A DNA stretch of 20,869 nt from a virus, in IMG/VR virus record IMGVR_UViG_3300021375_000204, positions 1-20,869 of that record. The stretch is one strand, 5' to 3'. Below the pieces are notes generated by a model that was not told the DNA's origin, ran no database searches, and worked only from the letters and a program-made list of their open reading frames with translations. Below are positions 1 through 18,644 of the stretch, in pieces. Numbering within the stretch: position 1 is the stretch's first letter; every line of letters starts with the position of its first letter. Both the position numbers and the translations under genes were made by a program.

Positions 1-975
1 TACTATTCCACTATTAATTTCTTCTTGTTTCCATTGTGTGTAAGCACAATCGTATAACCATTGTTTTCTATCAAACTTACATTGTATATTACTTTCACCT
101 ATAATGTCAAGCTTGTGGTAGCTTACTGGCCAAGCGTGTGATGTATCTGATAAGGCCACGGTTGGTATACCCTCACATACACTTTCTACTAATGCATTAC
201 TTGAATATGATACAACAACTCTAGCACCATCTAAATCTTTCTGAAATCCACTACCACCATTTGTTTCATTAAAATTATCATAGTTTTTACTATATATGAT
301 TTTGTTTTTAATTCCTGCTTCTCTAAATCTAGCAAAGAAACCACCTTTTTGACCACCATCTGGTGATATATTACCATATTTTTCTAAAAATCTAGGATGA
401 AATCTTACTACAATAGGTTCGTTAGTTAAAGAAGAAATCTTTTTCATTACCATATATAGATAGTTAATATAATTCCATTGTGTGCCTCTAGCTTTAGTGT
501 GTACTATTAATTTATCTTGCATATCGGCTGTATATAAATCATTCAGACTTGTATCAGTAGGATTTTGTAAACATAATAGTATATACTTACCCTCACTTCT
601 CCAAGGTTTAATTTCTATATCTTGTTCTTTTTGTATCATATCCCACCTATCAGACGGCGAGTTTTTATTCTTAAATATACCATTATTATATGTGTAATCA
701 TTTAAACCAATTCTATAATAGTAGTTATCGTCACCAACTTTTATATTTCTTCTAAATGTGGCACCCTCAAATACTATAACAGGCTTTTTAGTTTGTGCAA
801 TATAATCATATTGGTCTTTATAGTCTTTAAAAACACCTCTAACACCTGTGGTAACATATGCGTTTGCGTGTTCAAGGACTTTACGGTCTTCAAACTTTGC
901 AAATTTAAAATCATTATGTGTAGGAAAATTAAAGAAATCTCCTTCTCTAAATGAACCCCAAAAACCAACTATCAT
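1..975 (-). CDS. Polysaccharide-type glycosyltransferase (partial, 3' end beyond window)
   Basis: The frame is open from an ATG at 975 to the window edge: 325 codons, no stop, so the C-terminus is missing. The start overlaps the upstream stop as ATGA. Seen: an HxR-type stretch RFHPRFLEKYG (about 191-201) and a C-terminal block VVVSYSSNALVESVCEGIPTV (about 253-273) followed by WLYDCAYTQW (about 306-315). A Ser-rich loop, then an acidic residue and GxP, is what capsule/GT-B-like transferases show at the nucleotide-sugar site. I recognise this layout from marine phage 'glycosyltransferase' proteins. It resembles the next gene upstream (972-1793), so the two look like paralogues. Donor and acceptor are unknown. 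Likely role by inference: glycan transfer onto a virion or host-surface structure. Confidence 0.8.
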   Translation of the reverse strand, partial: MIVGFWGSFREGDFFNFPTHNDFKFAKFEDRKVLEHANAYVTTGVRGVFKDYKDQYDYIAQTKKPVIVFEGATFRRNIKVGDDNYYYRIGLNDYTYNNGIFKNKNSPSDRWDMIQKEQDIEIKPWRSEGKYILLCLQNPTDTSLNDLYTADMQDKLIVHTKARGTQWNYINYLYMVMKKISSLTNEPIVVRFHPRFLEKYGNISPDGGQKGGFFARFREAGIKNKIIYSKNYDNFNETNGGSGFQKDLDGARVVVSYSSNALVESVCEGIPTVALSDTSHAWPVSYHKLDIIGESNIQCKFDRKQWLYDCAYTQWKQEEINSGIV

Positions 976-1793
976 TGTAACCTCTTAACTGTCTCATATG
1001 CGACACCATTTTTTATTTCTTCTAGTGTAAACTGACAACTTAATAAACTATCTATCCATTTATCTATAAGTTCTTTATCAGGATAATATGGTCTTTCTAT
1101 TTTAGTCAAATCACTTTCACCAACAACATTTGATTGTGATACTTCATCACAAAATACTGGTACACCAGATAATACTGCCTCAATGGCAGCTGTTGATTGC
1201 ATAGTGACCATTGCCCAACAATTTTTTAATTGTTCTTGTAAAGATGTTTTATCACCTTTATTTCTAATTCTAATTTCTCTGTCTGTATATTTTTTTAATG
1301 TTTCAAGTGTATCACTTAACCACTTTTCTTCGGTTATATGATACATTCTACATACTGCTTTAGTTGGTGGACAAACTAGAATATAAGTACCAAAATTCCA
1401 ACCATTAAATGTAATTGGTTTATATCTTTCTATTCTCTTTTTGTCCTGATTTGTTAACTCAACTAACTTATTCAGTTGCAATTGATTCTTTACAACTCTG
1501 TATAATTGACCATAAGGACCTGGTCTATAATCTCTTGTAGCGTAAAAGTAAGCGTGGTCCATATAATAAAATTCGTGGTTTCTTTTTTGACATTCCCATA
1601 TAACTCTTTCTGAACCTCTTAATGTTCCTACAACTGCTAGAGGATTAGTTGTAAAATTTTCCCAATTAAACGTAGGCCAAAACCCCTCTTCAAATGGGTG
1701 TATTCTTTCTCTACCGTTTCTATGTACTATTTGTGAGAAAGCAACAATAAATCTATCTTTAGCACCAGAACCTGTACAAAATCCTTCAATCAT
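972..1793 (-). CDS. Polysaccharide biosynthesis-type transferase (GT-B-like)
   Basis: 273 aa, ATG start, overlapping both neighbours by 4 nt (ATGA), so probably translated by coupling; I see no strong ribosome site. The C-terminal third carries MVTMQSTAAIEAVLSGVPVF (about 195-214). This is the same Ser/Thr-rich loop, then Glu, then GVP as in the partial gene downstream, and it is followed by WIDSLLSCQFTLEEIKNG (about 246-263), which parallels WLYDCAYTQWKQEEINSG there. That pattern is typical of capsule/polysaccharide transferases. The N-terminal half is divergent and rich in aromatic residues. No signal peptide or membrane segment is visible, so it should be cytoplasmic. The substrate cannot be read from sequence. 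Confidence 0.75.
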   Translation of the reverse strand: MIEGFCTGSGAKDRFIVAFSQIVHRNGRERIHPFEEGFWPTFNWENFTTNPLAVVGTLRGSERVIWECQKRNHEFYYMDHAYFYATRDYRPGPYGQLYRVVKNQLQLNKLVELTNQDKKRIERYKPITFNGWNFGTYILVCPPTKAVCRMYHITEEKWLSDTLETLKKYTDREIRIRNKGDKTSLQEQLKNCWAMVTMQSTAAIEAVLSGVPVFCDEVSQSNVVGESDLTKIERPYYPDKELIDKWIDSLLSCQFTLEEIKNGVAYETVKRLQ

Positions 1794-2464
1794 TTTATAT
1801 TAATCTTACATTGTTGGTGATAGTAGTCAAACCATTCTGAATGATAGTCGCAATCGTTAGTATCGTGAAACCAAGGACCACCCTCTGTATAGTGAACGTT
1901 CTTTACATCTTTATTATATTCATATTCATCTGCTAACCAATTCCACTCTAATGGTAAATCACCTATTAGACTTTCATCCTCCAACCATTTAAATTGGTGT
2001 AATTGTAATCCTGAAGCTGTATTAACATAATCTGGTGTTAATGATGTACACTTGTCACAATTCATTAACATAAAACTAGACCAGTTCTTTTTAGGATATT
2101 TTGTTTGTATTTGATTTAAAAACTTTGTTTCAGTTCTTGGTTCATAATCGTGTTTACAAACCTGTACGGCATATTTTTCATCACGCAATCTCCATAATTC
2201 AGAAATATCGCCTAACATTAACTGGTCACAATCCATAAAAACTGCCCAGCCTTTATAGTCTGCTAGATAAGGCACCATAAATCTACTAAAACTAAATTCA
2301 GTTGATTCTAAATTACCTCTTTCTCTAGTAAACGTATCTTTTATATTAGGTAAATAAACAGGTGTAATTGATACCGGTCTGGTACTGTTTTTTAATATAC
2401 TATAAGCAAGTACACTAAAAGCAGCCTTCTCTTTACTATCATAACCAATAAAGACTTTAATCAT
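1790..2464 (-). CDS. GT8-like (GT-A fold) glycosyltransferase
   Basis: 224 aa from the ATG at 2464. A longer frame starts with GTG at 2479, but the internal MIKVFIGYDSKE is the usual beginning of this family and overlaps the upstream gene by only 8 nt. Seen: RFMVPYLADYKGWAVFMDCD (about 61-80), with a DxD-type metal/nucleotide-sugar motif DCD at 78-80, and HYTEGGPWF (about 191-199), which corresponds to the conserved C-terminal His region of GT8-like enzymes. Family knowledge: such enzymes move a sugar from a nucleotide-sugar with retention of configuration, using Mn2+. The sugar and acceptor are unknown. It sits in a tightly overlapping cassette with other sugar-modifying genes. Confidence 0.82.
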   Translation of the reverse strand: MIKVFIGYDSKEKAAFSVLAYSILKNSTRPVSITPVYLPNIKDTFTRERGNLESTEFSFSRFMVPYLADYKGWAVFMDCDQLMLGDISELWRLRDEKYAVQVCKHDYEPRTETKFLNQIQTKYPKKNWSSFMLMNCDKCTSLTPDYVNTASGLQLHQFKWLEDESLIGDLPLEWNWLADEYEYNKDVKNVHYTEGGPWFHDTNDCDYHSEWFDYYHQQCKINIK

Positions 2465-2945
2465 AGCATATAATACCACATACTGGAGTTTTAGTTTCTA
2501 AATCGTGTATTTCATCTAACTTTAGTCTGTACCATTTACCAGGTTCAGGTTTAAATTTAAACTTACATAATTCAGCTTCTTTATCTTCTACTGTACGTGT
2601 TTGGTCAAGTCTTTCATTTTCAAACCATTGTGACCAAAATCTAAATTGATTATCAAAGTCAAGTGCATAGAAAAAAACTTCTTCTTTTTTAGCGTCTGCA
2701 AATAGAGGAACATCTTTCATACACCAATAATAATACTTACCTTTTTCTGGTAATAATATGCTTCTAAATTCGTGTTGCAACCATTCTGATAGTTCATTTG
2801 ATACTTTATGAAAACTAAACTTTTCTCTATATTTTTCATAATTACCATCAATAGGTTTTTCTGCAATTGCTTCATTAGATTCAATTAACTCTTTAGGTAT
2901 TTCTTTGATACCCTTTTCTTCTTGTACAAATGAATTGTAAATCAT
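2457..2945 (-). CDS. Unrecognised protein in the glycosyltransferase cassette
   Basis: 162 aa. It starts as ATGA overlapping the upstream stop and overlaps the downstream transferase by 8 nt, so it is embedded in the coupled operon. I do not recognise a family. Visible features: soluble, no signal peptide or membrane segment, rich in Trp, Phe and Tyr (YYYWCMKD about 82-89, FRFWSQWF about 110-117), and the C-terminal CGIICYD. The first 50 residues are charged and look less ordered. The conserved context suggests a role with the transferases, for example an acceptor-binding or accessory protein, but nothing in the sequence proves that. Confidence 0.7.
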   Translation of the reverse strand: MIYNSFVQEEKGIKEIPKELIESNEAIAEKPIDGNYEKYREKFSFHKVSNELSEWLQHEFRSILLPEKGKYYYWCMKDVPLFADAKKEEVFFYALDFDNQFRFWSQWFENERLDQTRTVEDKEAELCKFKFKPEPGKWYRLKLDEIHDLETKTPVCGIICYD

Positions 2946-3658
2946 ACTCTAGCCTCCGGACTTTTCATTAACTTTTTTCTTTTAGGACCTTTTATGTGGT
3001 CATACACCGGTCCTAATATAGACCTTGCTTGTACGTGTCCTGTTTTACCATCACCAATGTCTTTATTCTTGACACCATTCTTTTCATATTTTTTTCTCAC
3101 TAAATCCCATATATAACTATCGTGTTGTTCTTTTTCTTTGTATATTAAATCTTCATTGTACATATTCTGCATTTCAACTGCATATTTTACCACATCTGGA
3201 TGTTTCATATTGAAGTATAAAAAACCACATTCACTATAATGATTTCCTCTACCTAGATAACTCATCATCATATCGTTATTGTGTATGTGTTTCTTTACCC
3301 ATTCTTCATCAATAGTTTTATAAAATACACTATCAGCGTCTATACAAATTAAACCATCATAGTCTTCGTTAGTAATAATCTCATTTGTATAAGCATATAC
3401 TTTATAAGAAAATCTAACACCATCATTAATATATCCAGCAGGTGTATCTGCAACAGGTCTTTCTTTGTTTCTATTTACAAACTCTTCGCATTGTGGTATC
3501 TCATCAAACGTACTTTTAGGCATAAAGTTCGTATGTGGTATATCTAACATATCTTCACTATATACAATCAAGTTAAATGGCCAGTTATAGGTTTCAAAAA
3601 ACTTATGACCATATTGTTTATATAACTTTTTGTTTAAAGTTGTGACTACACCAATCAT
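2942..3658 (-). CDS. GT-A type glycosyltransferase
   Basis: 238 aa, ATG start, 4-nt ATGA overlaps at both ends. Seen: an N-terminal MIGVVTTLNKKLYKQYG typical of nucleotide-binding strands, LICIDADSVF (about 103-112) with the DxD motif DAD, YSECGFLYFN (about 141-150), HDSYIWDLV near 180, and a basic GPKRKKLMKSPE tail that I recognise from similar marine phage proteins. DxD followed by a Glu/Cys-Gly-Phe-x-x-Phe-N block fits GT-A fold enzymes that read a nucleotide-sugar. It differs clearly from the other DxD protein (1790-2464), so it probably performs a separate transfer step. Substrate unknown. Confidence 0.78.
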   Translation of the reverse strand: MIGVVTTLNKKLYKQYGHKFFETYNWPFNLIVYSEDMLDIPHTNFMPKSTFDEIPQCEEFVNRNKERPVADTPAGYINDGVRFSYKVYAYTNEIITNEDYDGLICIDADSVFYKTIDEEWVKKHIHNNDMMMSYLGRGNHYSECGFLYFNMKHPDVVKYAVEMQNMYNEDLIYKEKEQHDSYIWDLVRKKYEKNGVKNKDIGDGKTGHVQARSILGPVYDHIKGPKRKKLMKSPEARV

Positions 3659-4347
3659 TTTGTAAATACTGTTTCTTTCCTATAATTACCTCTACGAAAG
3701 TATTTAATTGAAGCCATAATACTTTCAACATCTTTTGCATATTCTTTTTCTTTATCGTTTCTCAATGGTAATTCTAACACTACAACTGCATTATTTTTTG
3801 ACATCAATTCTAAACCACCTAGTACAATTTCTTTTTCGTGTTCTTGACAATCTACTTTGATAAAATCCACATTTTGGTCAAACTTATCTACATAATCATC
3901 CAACATTCTAACATCTGTTGTTAACTTTTTTAATGCTGATTCTTTTAATGTTCTTTGAGAGTTGCCATATTGTACACCGTGAGCTAGAAGACTTACGTTA
4001 CCACTTTCATCAGGACTTTGAAATAGTACGGCGTCTTTCTGGTGTTTGTTTGATAATGCTATCTCTTCTAATGTCCAGTTATTAAAACTTTCCATATTTC
4101 TTTTATAACATTCTATGTTTTCTGGATGTGGTTCAAATGCAACTACCTTTTCAAACTTTTTTGATAAGTCTTTAGACCAAAAACCAATATTACCACCAAT
4201 GTCTAATGCTAAACCTAATTTCTTAACAAATGATAATGAATAGTCTCTTTGTTCTTTTTGATATTCAAAATTACCATAGTGGTCTACTATATGAGTATCG
4301 TAATGTGTGTCCCAATCAGGCAACCACCAAGTTTTAATTAATTTCAC
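3655..4347 (-). CDS. FkbM-family SAM-dependent methyltransferase
   Basis: 230 aa, starting at a GTG (4347) whose GTGA overlaps the stop of the upstream gene. AGGAA seven bases upstream serves as ribosome site, and no other Met occurs until about residue 85, so the GTG start is well supported. Seen: LDIGGNIGFWSKDL (about 48-61), the SAM-binding motif I; VVAFEPHPENIE (about 68-79), motif II with the acidic ribose-binding Glu; and FIKVDCQEHEKEIVLGG (about 162-178), the FkbM hallmark block. Family knowledge: FkbM proteins mostly O-methylate sugars or hydroxyls. In this cassette, methylation (capping) of a glycan is the simplest reading, but the target is inferred. Confidence 0.9.
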   Translation of the reverse strand: MKLIKTWWLPDWDTHYDTHIVDHYGNFEYQKEQRDYSLSFVKKLGLALDIGGNIGFWSKDLSKKFEKVVAFEPHPENIECYKRNMESFNNWTLEEIALSNKHQKDAVLFQSPDESGNVSLLAHGVQYGNSQRTLKESALKKLTTDVRMLDDYVDKFDQNVDFIKVDCQEHEKEIVLGGLELMSKNNAVVVLELPLRNDKEKEYAKDVESIMASIKYFRRGNYRKETVFTK

Positions 4348-4895
4348 TTTTCACTTCCTATTTTTTGTATAAAATAACTATCTGCAATATCTGATAATGG
4401 ATTAGTTGCCTTATCTGTATCAAATATCTTTTTTAAGTCAATTTTAGTTTGTTTTATAAATTCATTTAACATCATATCTTTATCAGCATTACCTTTTCCT
4501 GTCGCACCTTTTTTAACAACACTTGGCACGACTGCTTCATAAGTAAGTCCCTTTTCAAGTATTCTATATTTGAGTATACCACAGTTCTCAGCGATTTGAA
4601 AAAGTCCTTGACCTTTTGAACCGTAAGAATAGCCTTCAATAAATATTTTTGGAGTTCCGAGTGGAGCAAGAATATTGAATACGAAATCTGATATATAACC
4701 AAATCTCTCAATAGGGTCTTTCCATTCTTTATGTTCATAACCAATAATATTATCACTTTGTTTACCAATCCACTTTTTCTTGTTTGTCAAATAATAAAAG
4801 TTTAAAGTACCGCCGTCATTCACACATACAGCAGGACTAGTTAGACTATAATCAATCCCAACTATCGTCCTCTGCTTTGTTATAATTTTCTTCAT
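4344..4895 (-). CDS. RuvC-like Holliday-junction resolvase/nuclease
   Basis: 183 aa from the ATG at 4895, which has GAGGA just upstream. A longer frame begins with GTG at 4919 and would overlap the upstream gene further. The RNase H-like acidic site is complete: IVGIDYSLTSP with Asp15, IFIEGYSYG with Glu87, and PLSDIADSYF with Asp169 and Asp172, spaced like the RuvC DxxD. KGATGKGNADKD (about 129-140) matches the conserved Lys-rich loop of phage RuvC-like proteins. Role by family: cutting four-way or branched DNA before packaging, as T4 gp49 (endonuclease VII) does. Neighbours are replication and nucleotide genes upstream and the sugar cassette downstream. Confidence 0.85.
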   Translation of the reverse strand: MKKIITKQRTIVGIDYSLTSPAVCVNDGGTLNFYYLTNKKKWIGKQSDNIIGYEHKEWKDPIERFGYISDFVFNILAPLGTPKIFIEGYSYGSKGQGLFQIAENCGILKYRILEKGLTYEAVVPSVVKKGATGKGNADKDMMLNEFIKQTKIDLKKIFDTDKATNPLSDIADSYFIQKIGSEK

Positions 4896-5025
4896 CAAAT
4901 TCCTCAACTTCCCATCCACAAAAAGGACAAGTTAATGGTTCTAAATCTTGAACCTCTATGTCCCATTCTACGGTATATTTAGTCTCACAATTTGAGCAGA
5001 CTTTTTGTGCTTTTTCTAATGCCAT
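4852..5025 (-). CDS. Small zinc-ribbon protein
   Basis: 57 aa, read directly from the sequence. The ATG at 5025 overlaps the nrdB stop by one base (TAATG), and the 3' end overlaps the RuvC-like gene by 44 nt. It carries CSNC (10-13) and CPFC (33-36), two CxxC pairs 19 residues apart, which fits one zinc ribbon; the tail is acidic (EEFDEENYNKAEDD). I recall small proteins of this form near ribonucleotide reductase or recombination genes in marine T4-like phages. The function is unknown. Binding to nucleic acid or to a partner protein is possible. Tight coupling to nrdB means it is made with the nucleotide enzymes. Confidence 0.8.
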   Translation of the reverse strand: MALEKAQKVCSNCETKYTVEWDIEVQDLEPLTCPFCGWEVEEFDEENYNKAEDDSWD

Positions 5026-6128
5026 TATAGTTTAAACTTTTTAAATTGGTCTTTTTTAACGTCTTGCTTAATACCACCAATTACATAAGATTCAATCTCT
5101 GTCTCTTGTGGTGCGTTTTGTGTAGAACGGCTGTTTAACCAATGTTCTACCCAAGGTAAAGGATTTGTTTTTTGCTCGTATCTCGGTTCTAGGCCGATTG
5201 CTTTCATTCTTCGGTTCGCCATATACTCTACAAACTGGTGTAATAGTTTTTCTGATAAACCAATCATACTTCCTTTGGAAAATAGATATGTTGCCCAACG
5301 TTTTTCCTCCTGAACAGCCTCATCATACATAGTATAAACTTCTTTTTCACTATCTTTAATTACTTTGTTCATCACTTTGTCATTTTCGTGGTCTCTGTAA
5401 TTATTGATAATTCTTTGTGACATTGCTAAGTGTTGTGATTCGTCTCTTGCAATAAAAGAAATAATCTTAGCACTACCTTCAAGTAGTTTTAATTCACCAA
5501 ATGCAAATGAACAAGCAAATGATACATAGAATCTTAAACCCTCTAGTATGTTAACTGTTACCAATGCTTTCCATAATTTCTTTTTGATTTCGTATTCGTC
5601 AACACTCTTCTTATCTAAATGCCACTTATAACCTGTGTCAATTAGGTCATCATAAGTCTCTGTAATAGTTTTTGCTCTTCGTTCAATTTTTTCATCACCA
5701 ATAATTGTATCAAATACTTCATTTGGATTTGAATATAGATTTTTAATAATGTATGTATAACTTCTACTATGAATTGTCTCAATGAAATCCCAAGTCACAA
5801 TACAACCTTCAATTTCTGGTAAAGAAACAAACGGTAAAAATGCAAGGCACGGACCTCTACCTTGTACACTATCTAACATAGTTTGGTATTTTAGATTAGA
5901 TGTAAAAATAAACTTTTGTTGTTCATTTAATTCTGCATAATCATTTCTATCTTTTTGTAAAGATACTTCTTCTGGTCTCCAAAAATAACCCATTTGTTGT
6001 TGATTCAGTTTATCAAAAATAGGATATTTCATATCACTATATTGTTGTACTTGTAAATCTTCACCAAAAAACATAGGTTGTTTTGTGAAATCAATATTTT
6101 TATTTGTGTTAAATACACTTCTCGCCAT
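5025..6128 (-). CDS. nrdB: Ribonucleoside-diphosphate reductase beta subunit (class Ia)
   Basis: 367 aa, the usual length. It holds the di-iron centre and radical used by NrdA to turn ribonucleotides into deoxyribonucleotides. All iron ligands are visible: Asp86 (TMLDS), Glu117 and His120 (WDFIETIHSRSY), Glu196 (ILEGLRF), and Glu230 and His233 (ARDESQH). The radical tyrosine is Tyr124, four residues after the His120 ligand, as in E. coli NrdB (His118/Tyr122). The C-terminus KKDQFKKFKL presumably docks to NrdA. It lies 10 bp downstream of nrdA with AAGGA before the ATG, so the two should be co-expressed. Cytoplasmic. Confidence 0.96.
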   Translation of the reverse strand: MARSVFNTNKNIDFTKQPMFFGEDLQVQQYSDMKYPIFDKLNQQQMGYFWRPEEVSLQKDRNDYAELNEQQKFIFTSNLKYQTMLDSVQGRGPCLAFLPFVSLPEIEGCIVTWDFIETIHSRSYTYIIKNLYSNPNEVFDTIIGDEKIERRAKTITETYDDLIDTGYKWHLDKKSVDEYEIKKKLWKALVTVNILEGLRFYVSFACSFAFGELKLLEGSAKIISFIARDESQHLAMSQRIINNYRDHENDKVMNKVIKDSEKEVYTMYDEAVQEEKRWATYLFSKGSMIGLSEKLLHQFVEYMANRRMKAIGLEPRYEQKTNPLPWVEHWLNSRSTQNAPQETEIESYVIGGIKQDVKKDQFKKFKL

Positions 6129-13156: not shown

Positions 13157-13164
13157 TATTTATA
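13157..13164 (-). promoter_or_regulatory. T4-type late promoter (TATAAATA)
   Basis: A perfect match to the T4 late promoter core, recognised by the phage sigma factor gp55 with the gp33/gp45 system. It begins 7 nt after the stop of the 73-aa gene and lies 80 nt before the ATG at 13077. Its flanks, CCTTTATAAATAAAGG (13153-13168), form a perfect 16-bp palindrome. The two other late promoters share the upstream CCYTT. Confidence 0.8.
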
Positions 13165-13401: not shown

Positions 13402-13881
13402 CTATTGGCTTTTGCCATTCCCATTTTCGTATTTCATATCTCTATCTGCGTCTTTTAGTTTTTCAATATTATCAGCCGCCTTTTGCATTTGAGTTTGCAA
13501 AAATTCAATGTTAATTTTATTGTTTTTTGAATCATCTAATTCTTTTTCAATTTTCTCCACCGTTTTATACAAATCCTCGATTAACATATATTGTTCCGAG
13601 TCGGCAGGCAATGTACCCATTTCACCTCTAGGCCATTTAATTCTAAATTCTGTATTCTTTTCTAAATCGGTTGACAACATTTCAATTGCCTGATTTAGGT
13701 CTTTTTGAAGTAGTGTAAGTTTAGTCTCTGAAATGTTTAGTCGTTCTACAATACCGAAATAACTCCACACTCCTACTGCTACTGCACCGATTATGGCCAG
13801 CATATTACGGATTGGCATAGCAACTGCTGTACTGTCATCTAATTCTAAAGGTTTACTCATCTTTGATTTCTTCACTTTCAT
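13402..13881 (-). CDS. Conserved membrane protein with WPRGE block
   Basis: 159 aa. One membrane segment (about 24-44) is followed by a helix and the block EFRIKWPRGEMGTLPADSEQ (78-97), continuing as YMLIEDLY, which I recognise as conserved in marine phages. The rest is coiled coil. A second ATG at 13860 (MSKPLELDD) would reduce the overlap with the upstream gene from 29 to 8 nt and matches the usual N-terminus. Neither start has a strong ribosome site, so the start is open. It follows the spanin pair directly, which suggests an envelope or lysis-timing role, but no function is known to me. Confidence 0.8.
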   Translation of the reverse strand: MKVKKSKMSKPLELDDSTAVAMPIRNMLAIIGAVAVGVWSYFGIVERLNISETKLTLLQKDLNQAIEMLSTDLEKNTEFRIKWPRGEMGTLPADSEQYMLIEDLYKTVEKIEKELDDSKNNKINIEFLQTQMQKAADNIEKLKDADRDMKYENGNGKSQ

Positions 13882-14233
13882 AGTATTCTTTATATTTATC
13901 TAACAAATCATTTGTAATCTTCAACTGGTTTCTGATTCTAGCAAAGTTCTTAGCCAAGAGTTCAAAGTCCTTATCTGTAAGTCCCCATAACACCGGGTCT
14001 ATGCCTTGTTCCTCTAGCTTTTTGAATACTTCCTCAGCATTATTACTAGTGATAATAATCCATCTTAAATTCTCTAATTCAAGAGGTTTAGGACTGTTCA
14101 AATTGAGTTTTTCCCTAGGTACTTCTTGCTTAAATATTTCTAACTGTTTTACTCCAGCACAACTAGTAAGGAATATAGTTAGGGTTAGCAATAGAAGGAC
14201 ACTCTGAATTAATTTCAGACTTCTTTGTAGCAT
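13853..14233 (-). CDS. Outer-membrane spanin lipoprotein (Rz1-like)
   Basis: 126 aa. A lipoprotein signal with LTSC (Cys25 at the end of a hydrophobic run) directs acylation and outer-membrane anchoring. The mature domain contains ENLRWIIITSNNAEEVFKKL and DPVLWGLTDKDFELLAKNFA, a fold found in o-spanin partners of many marine phages, then an amphipathic helix. It starts inside the upstream i-spanin gene, in another frame, with a 71-nt overlap and its own ribosome site (AAGGAA five bases before the ATG). Family knowledge: o-spanin and i-spanin join across the periplasm and fuse the membranes in the last step of lysis. Confidence 0.85.
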   Translation of the reverse strand: MLQRSLKLIQSVLLLLTLTIFLTSCAGVKQLEIFKQEVPREKLNLNSPKPLELENLRWIIITSNNAEEVFKKLEEQGIDPVLWGLTDKDFELLAKNFARIRNQLKITNDLLDKYKEYYESEEIKDE

Positions 14234-14633
14234 TCTTTTCCTTATCTGTTAAAGGTGACCCACTAGCAATCTCTATACATCTTGTCGCCAATGCACTCGC
14301 ACCGTTTGTTATTCGTTCAATAGTTTCTGTTCTCTGTATGGCTAACTTACCAACGTCTCTATTCTTTTTATTAAATCTCTTATCTAAATCTTCTAAATCT
14401 TTTTTTAATACATTCACCAACTGATTTATCTTATTGTTAGCGTCTAGTATTTTTTTAAAATCTATCTTTTGGTTTTCTATGAGTTCTTTCTGCTCTGTGA
14501 CGGCAGATTCTAACTTGATTTGATTTGCTTTTAATGTAGCATTATCAGACCTTAATTTCATAACATAGGCACCAGCACCGGCAAGACCAGCAACCATTAC
14601 ACCTATCATTATCATTCTCATAGAACCAAACAT
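14163..14633 (-). CDS. Inner-membrane spanin (Rz-like)
   Basis: 156 aa. An N-terminal membrane helix (about 7-25, MIMIGVMVAGLAGAGAYVM) is followed by a long periplasmic coiled coil (about 28-112) and a Cys-containing tail (Cys119, Cys145). This is the Rz layout: N-in signal-anchor plus coiled-coil stalk. The downstream lipoprotein gene begins inside it in another frame, as in the classical Rz/Rz1 arrangement. The start is 1 bp after the stop of the 34-aa gene (TAATATG). The tail SECPSIANPNYIPY carries prolines, as is common at spanin contact ends. Confidence 0.85.
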   Translation of the reverse strand: MFGSMRMIMIGVMVAGLAGAGAYVMKLRSDNATLKANQIKLESAVTEQKELIENQKIDFKKILDANNKINQLVNVLKKDLEDLDKRFNKKNRDVGKLAIQRTETIERITNGASALATRCIEIASGSPLTDKEKNATKKSEINSECPSIANPNYIPY

Positions 14634-17727: not shown

Positions 17728-18186
17728 TTACGCTGTTGTTCCAGTATTTGCTAAAATATTCCAAGAACCATTTTTGAAAAAACAAATTGCTGTTTTTCCA
17801 GCACCAGATAATACTATACTAGTATGACCTCGTAAGTTAGTTGGTGTAATTGTAGCATTGTTAGAACCAGTTGATGATGTATTTAAAAAGATTTTAATTT
17901 GACCATCTGCACCATTAGCTAATGTAATAGTACCTGCTTGTGCTGTTGCGTTGATTTCAGTCACACTTGAAGTCACATCAGCTGCAAGAGCGGAAGAACC
18001 GTCTAGTGTTAATTGTTGCGAAGCTTGTTTCAATCCTAACCAAGTTGGTATATTATTGAATACTGAGCTTGCACTTACTTTTTTATTGATTGGTGTTCCA
18101 GTTGGGTCATCTACAATGTGAAATAAATCTACTGAAGCTAATGCGTTACCTAAATCGGTAAGCTGTGTAATTTTCTTATCTGCCAT
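17728..18186 (-). CDS. Tail/fibre-like virion protein
   Basis: 152 aa. It begins MADKKITQLTDLGNALASVD, a start I know from phage fibre and appendage proteins, followed by LFHIVDDPTGTPINKKVSAS. The C-terminal two-thirds is Ser/Thr/Asn/Gly-rich beta-type sequence (EINATAQAGTITLANGADGQ, LNTSSTGSNNATITPTNLRG) ending with CFFKNGSWNILANTGTTA, where FKNGSWN is common at ends of phage beta-structured surface proteins. Excellent ribosome site (AGGAG seven bases from the ATG). First gene of a long late operon behind the promoter at 18255-18262. Host-contact role inferred. Confidence 0.8.
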   Translation of the reverse strand: MADKKITQLTDLGNALASVDLFHIVDDPTGTPINKKVSASSVFNNIPTWLGLKQASQQLTLDGSSALAADVTSSVTEINATAQAGTITLANGADGQIKIFLNTSSTGSNNATITPTNLRGHTSIVLSGAGKTAICFFKNGSWNILANTGTTA

Positions 18187-18202
18187 TTTTTTCTCCTGTT
18201 AA

Positions 18203-18240
18203 CCCCTTTCGGGGAATTCTACTTGTGCCAAAAGACACAA
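18203..18240 (-). promoter_or_regulatory. Two tandem hairpins in the late leader of the fibre-like gene
   Basis: On the minus strand, TTGTGTC-TTTT-GGCACAA (18223-18240; 7 bp with one G-U) is followed by CCCC-GAAA-GGGG (18203-18214; four G-C pairs closed by a GNRA tetraloop). The second ends just before the ribosome site AGGAG of the 152-aa gene. Both lie downstream of the late promoter and so are in the transcript. Probable role: mRNA stability or tuning of translation. Confidence 0.55.
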
Positions 18241-18254
18241 TCACTTTGTTTATA

Positions 18255-18262
18255 TATTTATA
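18255..18262 (-). promoter_or_regulatory. T4-type late promoter (TATAAATA)
   Basis: Perfect core with CTCCCTT immediately upstream, 69 nt before the ATG at 18186. It precedes a run of 15 same-strand genes with no larger gap until the next late promoter. The upstream flank is also the descending arm of the hairpin at 18261-18288. Confidence 0.82.
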
Positions 18263-18288
18263 AAGGGAGGTCAAGTGACCCCCCTTTA
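18261..18288 (-). terminator. Strong hairpin after the 93-aa gene, overlapping the late promoter
   Basis: On the minus strand, TAAAGGGGGGTCA pairs with TGACCTCCCTTTA, 13 bp with one G-U and a nominal 2-nt loop (open one pair for 4 nt). It begins 11 bp after the stop of the 93-aa gene and shares its last bases with TATAAATA. Only TTTAT follows, so termination may be partial. An mRNA 3'-end stabiliser is an alternative. Confidence 0.62.
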
Positions 18289-18299
18289 ATTAGTTGCTA

Positions 18300-18581
18300 T
18301 TAAGCAGCGTTAGTTAAAACTGATAAAGTCTCGTATTGTACTCTACCATTTCTACCACCACTACCTGTAATTTTTAAGTTCCAACCTGCGTGACCGGCAC
18401 CTGCTGGTACTTGGCCATCTGCATAGTTAAATAAACCCAATGTGACACCTGTAATAAAGTTGTCAGCAGTTGCGTCTTCAAATAAGTTAGTTCTATTTGC
18501 ACTTGTAGGTGCTAATTTAGCAGCGGCACAAGCCCATAACGGTGCTCCTGCAGCTGAATCTGCGCTAGTTTGCATAGACAT
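18300..18581 (-). CDS. Conserved small virion-type marine phage protein
   Basis: 93 aa. It contains FITGVTLGLFNYADGQVPAG (about 42-61), then AGHAGWNLKITGSGGRNGRV (62-81) followed by QYETL, a block I recognise from many marine phages, often in several copies per genome. Small, Ala/Gly-rich, no charge clusters; likely a beta-structured surface or decoration protein (inference). GGGAGAG precedes the ATG. It forms its own short late unit: promoter at 18637-18644 on one side and a strong hairpin on the other, which suggests high, separate expression. Confidence 0.82.
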   Translation of the reverse strand: MSMQTSADSAAGAPLWACAAAKLAPTSANRTNLFEDATADNFITGVTLGLFNYADGQVPAGAGHAGWNLKITGSGGRNGRVQYETLSVLTNAA

Positions 18582-18636: not shown

Positions 18637-18644
18637 TATTTATA
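18637..18644 (-). promoter_or_regulatory. T4-type late promoter (TATAAATA)
   Basis: Perfect core with AATCCCT just upstream, beginning 7 nt after the stop of the nucleotidase gene and 56 nt before the ATG at 18581. The same spacing after a stop codon and the same ATCCYTT flank occur at the promoter at 13157-13164. Confidence 0.82.

Follow-up and report, generated by a model that had tools for sequence, protein, structure and literature searches.

The junction between two minus-strand genes of a marine viral genome fragment raised the question of how one late transcription unit can end and the next begin when a gene-end hairpin and a late promoter share bases, and whether the hairpin acts in RNA or in DNA. 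The stretch analysed (the window) is the 20,869-nt virus record IMGVR_UViG_3300021375_000204, positions 1 to 20,869. Its genes matched those of Pelagibacter phage HTVC008M and Methylophilales phage Melnitz, both T4-like Kyanoviridae, and judged by these matches the window is a fragment of an HTVC008M/Melnitz-like marine T4-like phage. The gene ahead of the junction encodes a 93-aa protein, for which no match was found among phage isolates; the window copy had no match in PHROGs, Pfam or PDB, and structure prediction gave a low-confidence model (pLDDT 53). The gene behind the junction encodes a 152-aa protein and starts 68 nt past the TATAAATA box at 18262-18255. The predicted C-terminal beta domain of this protein resembles the N-terminal modules of T4 gp9 and CBA120 TSP4, with low TM-scores near 0.45. 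About 13 tightly packed minus-strand ORFs lie between this box and the next TATAAATA at 13164. Also on the minus strand, overlapping Rz-like and Rz1-like spanin genes were seen at 13853-14633 (products of 156 aa and a lipoprotein-like 126 aa), and positions 972-6128 carry glycosyltransferase-like genes, an FkbM methyltransferase and a RuvC-like resolvase adjoining a ribonucleotide reductase gene. The features of the junction are collected in Table 1.

Table 1. Features at and around the hairpin/promoter junction, in window coordinates
Feature	Position	Strand	Basis or remark
Late promoter TATAAATA of the 93-aa gene	18637..18644	-	Pattern scan
93-aa upstream gene	18300..18581	-	56 related loci; stop codon 11 nt ahead of hairpin H1
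H1, 12-bp hairpin	18261..18288	-	5′ arm 18288-18277, loop ACTT 18276-18273, 3′ arm 18272-18261
T4-type late promoter TATAAATA, exact match	18255..18262	-	Pattern scan; consensus and position per PMC1524935, PMC2988020
Predicted transcription start (+1)	18249	-	TATAAATA taken as -13 to -6, per PMC1524935; leader model match starts here
Leader: H2, GTAGAATT linker, H3 and Shine-Dalgarno	18187..18249	-	Covariance model, covariation
H2, 7-bp stem, UUUU loop	18223..18240	-	Stem sequence varies, pairing kept in relatives
H3, CCCC GAAA GGGG	18203..18214	-	Fold and covariation
AGGAG Shine-Dalgarno of the 152-aa gene	18193..18197	-	Sequence; conserved
152-aa gene (MADKKITQLT...)	17728..18186	-	First gene of the downstream unit

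The hairpin, H1, pairs TAAAGGGGGGTC with GACCTCCCTTTA around a 4-nt loop (ACUU as RNA), and one of its pairs is a G-U, with the G in the 5′ arm and the T in the 3′ arm, which makes it an imperfect inverted repeat. Its minimum free energy was -19.5 kcal/mol (z = -4.9), and none of 200 shuffled sequences folded equally well. No other stem in the window reaches 12 bp, and no hairpin there is stronger; when the 20.9-kb strand was shuffled 30 times with a first-order Markov model, a stem of 12 bp or more never appeared. A preliminary description of this DNA had given the stem as 13 bp; the hairpin was confirmed, but with 12 bp, as a thirteenth pair would reduce the loop to 2 nt. The same description had placed the end of the stem inside the late-promoter box, and this proved correct: the last two paired bases of H1 (18262-18261) are the first two bases of TATAAATA. 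The operon of 15 genes that it placed downstream compares with the roughly 13 ORFs counted here. We propose, with a probability of about 75%, that H1 is a terminator-type 3′-end RNA hairpin of the 93-aa late message that is merged with the next gp55-type late promoter. This reading is founded on the sequence itself, on selection for pairing in the sense-strand RNA, on a conserved overlap of 2-3 nt, and on an association between hairpins and late promoters that exceeds chance in the relatives and in T4.

To follow the junction in relatives, 56 loci were collected through the 93-aa gene and 80 through the 152-aa gene. In nearly all close relatives a hairpin lies between the two genes, usually fused to TATAAATA. 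The stems differ widely (for example GGGGGCTTCGGCCCCC, CGAGAGGGCTTCGGTCCTCTCG and AGGGCGGATATCTATATGTCCGCCCT), so that the stem sequence has been replaced wholesale with pairing retained. A stem was present in 124 of 145 distinct upstream segments, and 64 of those 124 carry an exact TATAAATA. The box behind 98 distinct hairpins was TATAAATA in 46, TATATATA in 18 and another one-base variant in 8; TATATATA, which stands in place of TATAAATA in loci such as L100, L111 and L116, is perhaps a tolerated promoter variant. Paired cells reached 96.6% in the fused hairpins, compared with 73.3% (maximum 80.6%) when the arms were re-dealt. When the box positions were scored in 35 distinct fused hairpins, T1 was paired in 32, A2 in 30, T3 in 22, A4 in 12 and A5 in 7, indicating that pairing enters TATAAATA by 2-3 nt and then drops to background. 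All these conservation counts are phylogenetically non-independent, similarity clustering having been applied to the strand test below and to nothing else. A pattern search of the full collection with TAAAGGGN{3,30}CCCTTTATAAATA returned true relatives mixed with seemingly unrelated records, and serves as a lead only. The compensatory stem changes for which the preliminary description had suggested looking were thus found, and the covarying stem bears out its view that the hairpin at the 3′ end of the 93-aa unit and the late promoter that follows it form a single compact element.

Such covariation can arise from pairing in RNA or in DNA. At the DNA level, the inverted repeat might act as a cruciform or a template hairpin that alters promoter opening, as had been suggested from the sequence; indeed, the stem reaches the -13/-12 positions, and each of the DNA strands is able to fold (-9.2 and -7.7 kcal/mol). 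Selection for pairing in DNA should tolerate G-T and A-C mispairs to about the same degree. We therefore performed a strand test with a pairing rule that admits G-T and A-C alike. The 98 distinct hairpins held 125 G-T mispairs and 11 A-C mispairs, and the excess persisted under progressive similarity clustering (77:11, 43:7, 26:6 and, at the strictest level, 14:3). Since pairing was not equally kept on both strands, a functional DNA cruciform was rejected. Moreover, CTTCGG (UUCG) loops were found in 16 of the 98 hairpins; RNA hairpins capped by UUCG are unusually stable. The G-T excess over A-C, together with the recurrent UUCG loops, indicates that the structure is maintained as sense-strand RNA. 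In addition, the hairpin outlives the promoter in some relatives: HTVC008M retains the hairpin and the leader with TATAAATA absent at the junction, and two related records (G004 and G007) likewise retain both without TATAAATA at the junction, the box being present elsewhere in them. Tuning of that promoter is thus unlikely to be the main role of the hairpin. Together, the mispair bias and the promoter-less hairpins contradict the suggested control of promoter opening, and we consider any such DNA-level role very improbable.

A simpler explanation of the fused element is that terminators and promoters are both intergenic and therefore come into contact now and then. Both are expected at unit boundaries, and most genomes hold few such sites. 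To weigh this, we counted strong hairpins that end within -30 to +8 of TATAAATA and identified them at 13 of 136 sites in eight related records, against 1.4% when the other 55 permutations of the 8-mer were used; T4 gave 7 of 32 sites against 2.1% for permuted 8-mers. A co-directional ORF ends just upstream at 19 of the 20 hairpin-associated sites (the eight records and T4 together), and the T4 sites include those at genes 8/9, 18/19, 35/36 and near alt. A published comparison of six T4-like genomes predicts a terminator at the gene 35/36 junction in all of them (PMC1524935). The enrichment stands against permuted 8-mers of equal composition, and conservation of the pairing 2-3 bases into the box extends over 35 hairpins whose stems have been replaced. 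Mere proximity is therefore, in our view, an unlikely account of the junction. We also considered whether a general preference for CCC/CCTT upstream of late promoters could be the source of the 3′ arm, and rejected it because no C-rich upstream column appeared in 123 hairpin-free TATAAATA sites.

Fused elements were seen at other junctions as well. In one related record (G006, L204 3146-5263), the tail tube/portal junction bears a hairpin fused to a late promoter in the same manner, and HTVC008M has a hairpin behind its tail tube gene that includes seven of the eight box bases. In the latter (L196 9392-9422, HTVC008M 69415), ATTTATAGCGG...CCGCTATAAAT forms a single hairpin with TATAAAT on each strand, possibly a bidirectional late promoter. 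Separately, a terminator/promoter string ending in TTTTTCTTTATAAATACTAT is common to L057 (1537-1568) and T4 (87187 and 155837). This shared string and the fold resemblance between the MADKK protein and T4 gp9 may reflect common descent or convergence.

We then asked what the RNA hairpin would do at the end of the 93-aa message. A stable G/C-rich hairpin that follows a stop codon, as H1 does at a distance of 11 nt, fits the description of an intrinsic terminator, and termination at H1 is plausible. However, the stretch past its G/C core is UUUAUAAAUA, composed of A/U only, and a terminator scan of the window with a threshold of 5 T in 8 did not call H1. At the fused sites generally, the first 8 nt that follow the last G-C pair contain 3-5 T, which is a poor U-tract. 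With a d'Aubenton-Carafa-type terminator index, H1 scored +22.8 when the A/U pairs were taken as tail and -6.7 when they were taken as stem; correspondingly, the index was positive at 26 of 35 fused sites in the first case and at 2 of 35 in the second.

These features leave room for a role in protection or processing of the 3′ end only, in which transcription passes H1 or stops elsewhere, for example through Rho, while the hairpin keeps 3′ exonucleases away and so lengthens the life of the upstream message. The poor U-tract at fused sites and the stability of UUCG-capped stems would suit it, as would those orthologues that keep the hairpin with UAUAUACU or without any T-run behind it. On the other hand, full U-tracts occur in several orthologues and at other junctions, and these suggest that termination was the original role: the orthologous junctions in L057, L058 and L064 carry a canonical terminator, GGGAGCTTCGGCTCCCTTTTTCTTTATAAATA, nearly identical to those at T4 genes 8/9 and 35/36. 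Protection alone is a sub-case of the merged-element model, from which it differs in termination alone, and we regard it as a possible, though tentative, account. Within the merged-element model, termination with insulation and pure 3′ protection carry similar weight.

On the merged-element model, RNA that starts from the promoter at 18644 would fold H1 just beyond the 93-aa stop codon, and the folded hairpin would either free RNA polymerase at UUUAUAAAUA or shield the message from 3′ exonucleases. At the DNA level, these A/T bases would form the -13/-12 end of a putatively active TATAAATA, and the next message would begin near 18249. The merged element would also bar polymerases arriving from upstream from the promoter. 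T4-type late promoters consist of an 8-bp box and have no -35 element (PMC2988020); because the box alone makes the promoter, the upstream DNA is free to carry a hairpin, and the merger becomes possible.

Downstream of the predicted start, the RNA would open with a structured 63-nt leader. A covariance model of it (R1) matched the window at 18184-18249 with 76.2 bits. The leader is conserved as one unit up to the start codon, comprising H2, AGUAGMAUUCCC, H3 and the Shine-Dalgarno sequence. Across 65 sequences, 122 cells were changed on both sides, compared with 45 in shuffles, and 85.5% of cells were paired, compared with at most 51.5% after sliding. In the window and in each of 7 of the 8 related records the model identified one strong copy, and its scan found no leader copy in Melnitz or T4. 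Every match in a leader-like context precedes a gene of the MADKK type. In Rfam, the best score for the window was 18 bits against the 56 needed, and no match was found at the leader in six other loci. Taken together, we lean towards the view that the leader is an undescribed cis-regulatory RNA family, which marine and freshwater T4-like phages carry in single copy and nowhere but ahead of the MADKK-type gene. Its probable role is to control how that message is translated or how stable it is, and autoregulation may be involved. The leader is thus a candidate for a new RNA family of abundant aquatic phages, and it, rather than the fused hairpin, is probably the more novel part.

We also considered a switch of the T4 soc/e type, in which H1 would hide the ribosome site of the next gene in read-through early RNA and late RNA starting inside the element would lack the hairpin. 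Overlap of promoter and hairpin, as reviewed for T4 gene e (PMC3014915), is shared with this junction. However, H1 ends about 63 nt ahead of the Shine-Dalgarno sequence, and in the predicted fold of the whole intergenic RNA, H1, H2 and H3 form separately with AGGAG unpaired. Such a translational switch was therefore rejected, and we hold it to be highly unlikely.

A literature search, in which subscription journals were thinly covered, returned no account of a gene-end hairpin overlapping a T4-type late promoter. In these streamlined marine T4-like phages, one late unit would end and the next start in under 40 bp, and a promoter without a -35 element suggests why such compactness is possible. 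The overlap, conserved despite complete stem replacement, offers a clean test of termination beside a gp55-type promoter.

Compared with known systems, the junction is of a type already known in kind, and the variant lies in the conserved overlap and the reduced U-tract. Like the T4 junctions at 8/9, 18/19, 35/36 and the alt region, it has a hairpin just past a late-gene stop, often with a UUCG loop, followed by the TATAAATA of the next gene, and the L057 version shares TTTTTCTTTATAAATACTAT with T4; the T4 stem, however, ends 2-10 nt before the box, mostly with a U-tract, whereas here the stem runs into the box and only UUU is left of the U-tract. The promoter resembles the T4-type (gp55/gp33/gp45) late promoter in its perfect TATAAATA, its A/T-rich downstream sequence and its lack of need for a -35 element, but the upstream edge of its box is paired into the hairpin of the upstream transcript. 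With T4 e and soc it shares a late promoter overlapping hairpin-forming sequence, although the T4 hairpin covers the downstream ribosome site and H1 does not. Finally, H1 has the G/C-rich stem, the tetraloop and the position past a stop codon of a bacterial intrinsic terminator, but its U-tract merges into the -10 box, which also limits it.
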